Assembly (NCBI RefSeq): GCF_000374005.1
Contig: NZ_KB893134.1
Location: forward strand, 806,518-870,517
Length of the DNA: 64,000 nucleotides
From: Kiloniella laminariae DSM 19542
GTDB lineage: Bacteria; Pseudomonadota; Alphaproteobacteria; Kiloniellales; Kiloniellaceae
Direction of reading: 5' to 3'
Part shown: in pieces, positions 54,392 through 57,007 of the stretch
How positions within the stretch are numbered: the stretch's first letter is position 1
Layout of the letters: every line of letters starts with the position of its first letter
Notes under the pieces: model-generated
The model's database searches: none
Seen by the model: the letters and a program-made list of their open reading frames with translations, nothing else
What the model was told of the DNA's origin: nothing
Translations under genes and position numbers: made by a program

Positions 54392-54433
54392 ACAGATAGA
54401 GGTGATGGTGTAATAGATCACTGTTGTTGTAAG

Positions 54434-54467
54434 GGGCGCTGGACATCGAATGTCAGCGCCCTTTTTT
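54434..54467 (+). terminator. Terminator after the MFS gene
   Basis: Stem of GGGCGCT + GACAT paired to ATGTC + AGCGCCC (single G bulge), loop CGA, then six T. Confidence 0.92.
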
Positions 54468-54614
54468 CTGTTTTGCTGTCCGGGCAACAGCAATGGAGAG
54501 AATCCCCGGGAACAGCTTTGCCTGCTTTGCTGGTCGATGCCAGTTTGAAAAAGATCTGGTTCTTGGGAGGGTTGGTGCTTGAGAAGACGTGACAGGTGAG
54601 AAAACGGGCAAGGC

Positions 54615-54747
54615 AAAAAAAAACCGGGCCACGAAGGCCCGGCAAGTTGAACAGGGAGGCTTCACGTCTGGGAAGACGTGGGGTCCGAAGACCCTCCAGG
54701 CCGAAGCCTGGAAAAACAGACCAACCGGAGCATGGCTCAACAGCTAA
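54615..54747 (-). ncRNA. Candidate structured small RNA with UUCG hairpins
   Basis: The minus strand of this otherwise gene-free 515-bp gap folds into four consecutive hairpins. From 5' to 3' they are: 54712-54695 (7-bp stem, UUCG loop closed by C-G), 54694-54681 (5-bp stem GGGUC/GACCC, UUCG loop closed by C-G), 54680-54663 (7-bp stem CACGUCU, 4-base loop), a single-stranded stretch with CCUCCCU, and 54642-54624 (7-bp stem CCGGGCC, 5-base loop) followed by nine U. The last is a rho-independent terminator. A -10-like TATACA lies near 54750. No Rfam family was recognised; coding potential is poor. The 5' end is a guess. Confidence 0.62.
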
Positions 54748-54906
54748 TCTGTATAAGATATTGCAAAGCAACATCTGATGACATGAATGTAGCGTTTTTT
54801 CTGATGATGTCGATTTACATTATTACAGTGCCGATATGCATTGAGCGCATAGCTTTTAACTCATTGTAATAATTTATGTATTTTTGAAATATTGGTTAAT
54901 TAAGTC

Positions 54907-55797
54907 TTAGAATTTGGATTCCGCGACCTTGCGCAGAAGGAAATCACGGAAGATCGATATGCGTTTTGAAGAGCGCATCTCTTCGGCATAGACGAAATAG
55001 GCATCAAACTGAGGCCCTTCGATCTCGGGAAGGACCTGTACCAGGTCGCTTGTTTCCTGGGTCATGAAATCTGGCAGGGCGCCCAGTCCGGCACCTGATC
55101 TCAGGGCTTTCATGATGGCATAGACATTGTTGATGGTCATGGAGGGCGTGCGCATGTGCCCGCCTTTGGTTCCAACCCGGAGCAACCAGTTGATATCCGG
55201 CAGCGGTGGCCGTGAATCATCCCCATAGACAACGATTCGATGCGCAGAGAGGTCTTCTACCGTTCGAGGCATACCGTGTTTTTTGATATAGCTGACTGCG
55301 GCATAGATGTGCATTTGCGCGGTCAGAAGGTGGCGTTGAATAAGATCTGCCTGGCGCGGGGGATGCAAACGTACAGCGATATCGGCTTCACGCATGGAAA
55401 GATCAAGTTCAGCGTCCGTAAGGACAAGGTGGACCTGAATATCAGGGTAAAGTTCGATAAATTCCTGAAGCCGCGGGGCGAGCCAGGTTGAGCCAAAAGC
55501 TACGGTAGTCGTGATTTTGAGCGGGCCTTTGGGGCGATCTTTGCTTTCGGTCAGCTGTGCTTCCGTCATGGCGAGTTTGCCAAAGACATCATGCGCAGTG
55601 CGATAAAGCAGCTCGCCCTGTTCTGTCAGGATCAATCCACGGGCGTGGCGATGAAACAGAGATACCTTGAGGCTGTCTTCCAAGGCGGATATCTGGCGAC
55701 TCACGGCAGATTGGCTCAGGTTCAGTTGCTCTCCGGCATGGGTGAAACTTCCTGCCTCAGCCACGGCATGGAAAATTCGCAGCTTGTCCCAGTCCAT
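54907..55797 (-). CDS. LysR family transcriptional regulator
   Basis: 296 residues from ATG 55797, which begins with the family start MDWDKLRIFHAVAEAGSF; the longer reading would need TTG. The helix-turn-helix is HAGEQLNLSQSAVSRQISAL. The ligand-binding domain follows, with FIELYPDIQVHLVLTD. It lies downstream of trxB on the same strand, a frequent alphaproteobacterial order, but its ligand is unknown. Confidence 0.93.
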   Translation of the reverse strand: MDWDKLRIFHAVAEAGSFTHAGEQLNLSQSAVSRQISALEDSLKVSLFHRHARGLILTEQGELLYRTAHDVFGKLAMTEAQLTESKDRPKGPLKITTTVAFGSTWLAPRLQEFIELYPDIQVHLVLTDAELDLSMREADIAVRLHPPRQADLIQRHLLTAQMHIYAAVSYIKKHGMPRTVEDLSAHRIVVYGDDSRPPLPDINWLLRVGTKGGHMRTPSMTINNVYAIMKALRSGAGLGALPDFMTQETSDLVQVLPEIEGPQFDAYFVYAEEMRSSKRISIFRDFLLRKVAESKF

Positions 55798-55954
55798 GAT
55801 GGTTGCCCCAAGACGTCCCCGGCGTTTTGAGCCCTCTGGCAAGACCGTTCTCCCTAATTTTCCGTGCGTTGTACCGCAACAGCGATTCGTTGAATTGCGC
55901 TCATGATACTTTAGGCTGAGGTTCTTAACAAATCATGCCTGCTTCGAGCTATGC

Positions 55955-56011: not shown

Positions 56012-57007
<996 letters not shown>

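Follow-up and report, generated by a model that had tools for sequence, protein, structure and literature searches.

The hairpin array on the minus strand of a 64,000-nucleotide stretch of the Kiloniella laminariae DSM 19542 genome (hereafter, the window) is, judging from comparison with its relatives, a real and conserved sRNA gene and belongs to a large family centred on the Rhodospirillales. We consider it probable that the locus encodes a trans-acting anti-Shine-Dalgarno (anti-SD) sRNA of ~165 nt, activated by a LysR-type regulator and gated by PhaR, which would be the Rhodospirillales counterpart of AbcR1. The preliminary description had reported the span 54615-54747, which holds the hairpins and leaves out the promoter and ~30 nt of the 5' end; the RNA probably starts at about 54779, and its promoter elements extend to 54850. 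The parts of the predicted gene are collected in Table 1.

Table 1 Predicted parts of the sRNA gene and the genes upstream of it (positions in the window)
Feature	Position	Strand	Sequence on the minus strand	Support and remarks
Predicted full-length sRNA, ~165 nt (five hairpins, unpaired core, terminator)	54615..54779	-		Fold, -76.3 kcal/mol; start (54779) placed from the -10 box
PhaR-operator-like palindrome; can form the first hairpin of the RNA	54757..54775	-	GATGTTGCTTTGCAATATC	
Second predicted 5' hairpin	54716..54752	-		Fold only
H1, UUCG cap	54695..54712	-	UCCAGGC-UUCG-GCCUGGA, 7 bp	Sequence and loop vary outside the genus
H2, UUCG cap	54681..54694	-	GGGUC-UUCG-GACCC, 5 bp	Helix covaries; 5/5 pairs with two-sided changes, 60.7% of cells paired
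H3; C-rich loop is the putative first anti-SD motif	54663..54680	-	CACGUCU-UCCC-AGACGUG, 7 bp	Near-invariant sequence; 95.3% of cells paired
Unpaired core, with putative second anti-SD motif CCUCCCUGUU	54641..54660	-	GCCTCCCTGTTCAACTTGCC	Unpaired probability 0.73-1.0
Intrinsic terminator	54615..54643	-	CCGGGCC-UUCGU-GGCCCGG (54642-54624), then nine U (54623-54615)	Terminator scan; 5/7 pairs compensatory, 90.2% of cells paired
-10-like hexamer	54786..54791	-	TACATT	Promoter scan; kept across Kiloniella
-35-like hexamer	54808..54813	-	TCGACA	Promoter scan; kept across Kiloniella
ATGC-N7-GCAT dyad, putative LysR-type recognition site, centre -64	54836..54850	-	ATGCGCTCAATGCAT	
LysR-type regulator in the LsrB/VtlR position, upstream	54907..55842	-		Pfam LysR_substrate and HTH_1
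trxB, thioredoxin reductase, upstream of the LysR gene	56012..56959	-		TIGR01292, 416 bits (cut-off 343)

All four of the minus-strand hairpins that had been claimed (H1 to H3 and the terminator stem) were there at the positions given, with CCUCCCU unpaired at 54659-54653, between H3 and the terminator. The minus strand from 54747 to 54613 folded at -59.0 kcal/mol, compared with -42.1 kcal/mol (s.d. 3.7) for 200 dinucleotide shuffles, none of which was as low (z = -4.6). Since the plus strand folded equally strongly (z = -4.9), the strand had to be called on other evidence. Only on the minus strand does the U9 tract lie 3' of its stem, the promoter is also on that strand, and the orientation behind the LysR gene was the same in every relative in which the LysR gene was found. 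In addition, the helix deviations in relatives were mostly of the G-U rather than the A-C type: 52 versus 1 in H3 and 34 versus 5 in the arms of the 5' palindrome, counts that are not phylogenetically independent. The terminator helix, with 6 versus 3 in relatives, carried no strand signal.

Conservation is highest in H3 and in the 20-nt core. The UUCG loops, previously put forward as a hallmark, proved incidental, as only 29 of 82 relatives had C(UUCG)G in the 5' part (H2 region); at the H1 position both sequence and loop vary in relatives and are often C-rich. The H3 loop reads UUCCCA in the Kiloniella window and UCUCCCA in most relatives, and the hairpin was kept with a different sequence at two loci (L062 and L092). 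A long-range pairing, GUUGA...UCAAC, which appeared in the first fold, was rejected, being disrupted in a G006 copy (L008, UUUGACUU). A coding role was likewise rejected, because indels of 1-2 nt within the genus disrupt any reading frame. The first genus alignment mixed the strands and was not usable as a whole.

The RNA was found in 9/9 genomes of the genus Kiloniella, one of which holds two copies ~550 bp apart. The covariance model R1 matched in all of the family genomes searched (20/20), each with at least one second, weaker copy, and in 139 of the 289 sampled Alphaproteobacteria. A total of 114 stretches carried exact GCCTCCCTGTTYRACTTGCC, almost all of them belonging to Rhodospirillales and relatives (Kiloniella, Nisaea, Pelagibius, Thalassobaculum, Tistlia, Dongia, Roseomonas and others); the invariance of the core in these stretches follows by construction, since the core was the search pattern. 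Conservation nonetheless extends to parts that lie outside that pattern: the hairpin ACGTCTCCCAGACGT flanking the core, the terminator and the elements upstream. On 82 rows, the three-helix structure had 84.3% of its cells paired, a value that fell to 23-44% when the helix partners were slid, and two-sided changes occurred at 12 pairs, in 156 cells versus 55.5 in shuffles. The stems are therefore conserved and covarying in relatives, the outcome of a check that the preliminary description had proposed. Its reading of the C-rich stretch as anti-SD was likewise supported. With a conserved promoter of its own, an intrinsic terminator and conserved stems, the locus has the predicted make-up of the stand-alone sRNA gene that had been suggested.

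In the promoter scan, the -35/-10 pair had a 16-nt spacer and 9/12 matches. The ATGC-N7-GCAT dyad was found upstream of 87 of 100 relatives, 84 of them with exactly N7, compared with 7% of random 300-nt control stretches. Its centre in the window, 54843, is at -64 from the predicted start, 54779, in the region where the recognition site of a LysR-type regulator usually lies. GCATATCGGCACT, at -60 to -48 of the predicted start site, has one mismatch to the published LsrB box GCAT-N3-TG-N3-T (-61 to -49), which was exact in very few of 70 relatives. We propose that the adjacent LysR protein, in the LsrB/VtlR position, would bind the dyad at -64 and activate transcription of the sRNA.

Of 105 relatives, 66% had a YTGC-N3-GCAR palindrome in the 150 nt upstream of the core, versus 3% in the random control, and its spacing from the dyad was 75-81 nt in nearly all relatives carrying both. 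The invariance of TGC/GCA in the counted sites is a product of the search pattern. The PhaR motif of S. meliloti is YGCRNYGCR (PMC12542648), and its central RNY fits 48 of the 56 distinct palindrome sites; the window's own palindrome, TTGC-N3-GCAA, has TTT at its centre, not RNY. A PhaR equivalog (148 bits, cut-off 109) and hfq are encoded in the genome, and two PhaR-like palindromes (L175, 1089 and 1146) lie upstream of its only detected phasin gene (PF09361), as PhaR sites lie upstream of the phasin genes in S. meliloti (PMC12542648). PhaR would bind the palindrome just past the start site and block transcription until PHB draws PhaR off, and the sRNA, once made, would bind Hfq via its U-tail. 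The arms of the palindrome tolerate G-U, so that it is probably part of the transcript, as its first hairpin. By this pattern of substitutions it also behaves as an RNA hairpin, and PhaR binding is not needed to explain it.

The same LysR gene (56-92% identity) lies upstream on the same strand in 69 of the ~83 relatives with enough flank, and the usual order on one strand is trxB–LysR–sRNA, with trxB in 56 alignments of relatives. As NCBIfam gives the LysR protein no name above cut-off, its assignment as LsrB/VtlR is based on gene order and the literature: the order in A. tumefaciens is trxB-vtlR-abcR1-abcR2 (PMC7486931), and AbcR1 and AbcR2 of S. meliloti adjoin lsrB (PMC8844928). The Rhizobiales RNAs AbcR1/AbcR2 (alpha-r15) thus resemble the Kiloniella RNA in being located downstream of trxB-vtlR/lsrB, and both have a LysR-type box upstream, a putative one in the Kiloniella RNA. 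In three other genomes of the class (L266 in G190, L267 in G286 and L268 in G063), the RNA stands behind the LysR gene in two or three tandem copies with C-rich loops, recalling AbcR1/AbcR2. The layout is also alike. In AbcR, the loop of the 5' hairpin holds one anti-SD motif and the stretch between the stem-loops another (PMC8844928), and the two motifs of the Kiloniella RNA are in a hairpin loop (H3) and in the single-stranded GCCUCCCUGUU before the terminator. The anti-SD sequences are CUCCUCCC/UUCCCCUC in AbcR, and UCUCCCA or UUCCCA together with GCCUCCCUGUU in the Kiloniella-type RNA, which differs from AbcR in its extra 5' hairpins and in the PhaR-like palindrome. The ar15 (AbcR) family was not among the cmscan matches of the RNA up to E = 5, and the ar15 genome search returned zero matches anywhere, controls included, and hence carries no information. 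As membership in the ar15 profile is not shown, we class the RNA as AbcR-like by position and layout, and not as a member.

At the gathering thresholds, Rfam matched the RNA to no sRNA family, either in the window or in the relatives tested; the preliminary description had recognised no known family. As a statement about kinship, that description gives way to the AbcR-like position and layout and to two sub-threshold matches, to SorX (RF02784), the best Rfam match (38.1 bits, gathering 46.6), and to MmgR/alpha-r8 (RF00519; 29.5 bits, gathering 41). The second of these matches would fit a true alpha-r8 (MmgR/SisA) member, a PHB-responsive, phasin-repressing sRNA with an incidental LysR neighbourhood, which we regard as unlikely. 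MmgR and SisA-D (alpha-r8) share with the Kiloniella RNA the succession of hairpin, CUCCCU anti-SD core (here CCUCCCU) and terminator; PHB genes are encoded in the genome, and the PhaR-like operator has its parallel in the mmgR promoter, which PhaR binds in S. meliloti (PMC12542648). However, the score is under gathering, and the core reads AAGCCUCCCUGUU in the Kiloniella RNA and UUUCCUCCCU in alpha-r8/MmgR. No alpha-r8 core was seen beside the four FGase genes of the genome, which lie elsewhere than the RNA, and the phasin leader gave no duplex signal versus 200 shuffles, so that the phasin mRNA was rejected as a target. Moreover, sister genera of the same family have their canonical alpha-r8 RNA (50-63 bits, UUUCCUCCCUAAACUUGG) at another place in the genome than the present RNA, which indicates two separate genes. 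Only RF00519 hits above cut-off were used, as the genome search at E <= 1 matched in 13/14 control genomes. In the sister genera (L012-L016, L036 and L038), PhaR-motif matches, TATTGTGCASTGCGRYATG, precede the core of the canonical alpha-r8 RNA by ~54-58 nt.

SorX is derived from the 3' UTR of RSP_0847 (PMC6238624), and this Rhodobacter RNA shares with the Kiloniella RNA a ACCUCCCUGUU core with a GCCGGGC-type terminator after it. The Kiloniella RNA could similarly be released from the LysR mRNA and have no promoter of its own, the more so as the LysR gene ends ~128 nt upstream of the predicted start site and the scan found no terminator between them. Such an origin is very unlikely in our estimate, since the dyad and the palindrome accompany the RNA even at several loci where the LysR gene is 1.3-3 kb off; SorX, which arises by excision from the 3' UTR of a gene of the OmpR type, also has another hairpin, and the conserved promoter of the Kiloniella RNA argues against such an excision. 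That the array is only a long structured terminator or a set of REP-like hairpins of no regulatory role, which strong hairpins and a terminator would suit, is hardly credible when the unpaired core and H3 are best conserved, when the RNA occupies one or two places per genome in a fixed gene order and is not dispersed, and when the converging MFS gene comes with a terminator-like hairpin of its own (AAGGGGCGCTG...CAGCGCCCTTTTTT, window 54431-54469 (+)) and thus does not need that of the sRNA.

SorY (RF02651) of Rhodobacter scored 18.6 bits in the window, far under its gathering threshold of 111, and the Kiloniella sequence is different. In genome G044, a SorY-like RNA lies downstream of the LysR gene (L278, 166-247) with 62.1 bits, also under 111, and was matched weakly by R1. 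Going by these resemblances, SorY may be a counterpart of the RNA in another order.

For an anti-SD sRNA of the AbcR type, the mode of action would be pairing of the two C-rich motifs with ribosome-binding sites, leading to less translation of transporter and metabolic mRNAs. Both motifs were unpaired in the predicted full-length RNA according to fold and accessibility. Targets were sampled by sequence pattern only, as ACAGGGAG upstream of starts; this pattern stood 4-12 nt before ATG 43 times in the genome versus 4 times for the reversed pattern, an imperfect control. The starts preceded by ACAGGGAG include three of ABC transporter parts, namely open frames for two solute-binding proteins (SBP_bac_1 and SBP_bac_3) and a binding-protein-dependent permease. 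The permease is at L313, and solute-binding proteins are at L308 and L317. Among the eight duplexes tried, only three were better than the best of 200 shuffled leaders: L323 (-24.3 versus -18.4 kcal/mol, 5.9 better), L316 (-18.4 versus -17.4, 1.0 better) and L313 (-23.4 versus -22.7, 0.7 better). This predicted target set is weakly suggestive of an AbcR-type role.

AbcR sRNAs are known mainly from Rhizobiales and have a role in interactions with plant and animal hosts. The present RNA falls under the Rfam cut-offs, and so was missed by them, and it carries an operator like that of a PHB regulator. Its AbcR-like position and layout, kept in Rhodospirillales and further afield, suggest a circuit of greater age and wider distribution than has been described. 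The RNA also offers a link from redox sensing and carbon storage to the control of nutrient uptake that can be tested directly. More tentatively, an LsrB-activated, PhaR-gated anti-SD sRNA behind trxB-lsrB might be an ancestral module of the Alphaproteobacteria that couples nutrient uptake to redox state and to carbon storage, with AbcR, SorY and perhaps SorX and MmgR as its diverged descendants, although we lean against so broad a reading.

Other RNAs were observed in the course of the analysis. A short sibling RNA consisting of GATGCCTCCCTGTTGACTTGCC and a terminator (L028; G000:C37:185660-185732, minus strand) lies close to an Hsp20-like gene, ~240 nt downstream of the gene for 3-hydroxybutyrate dehydrogenase. 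L229, L231 and L235 (about 1470-1600) hold another sibling type, with CCTTGTAACGCCTCCCTGTTAAACTTGCC and, upstream, GCCCTCCCCGGGTCCTCCC stretches that resemble repeated anti-SD loops. Finally, the locus of one relative holds an FMN riboswitch (L053, 7138-7284 (-), 108 bits).
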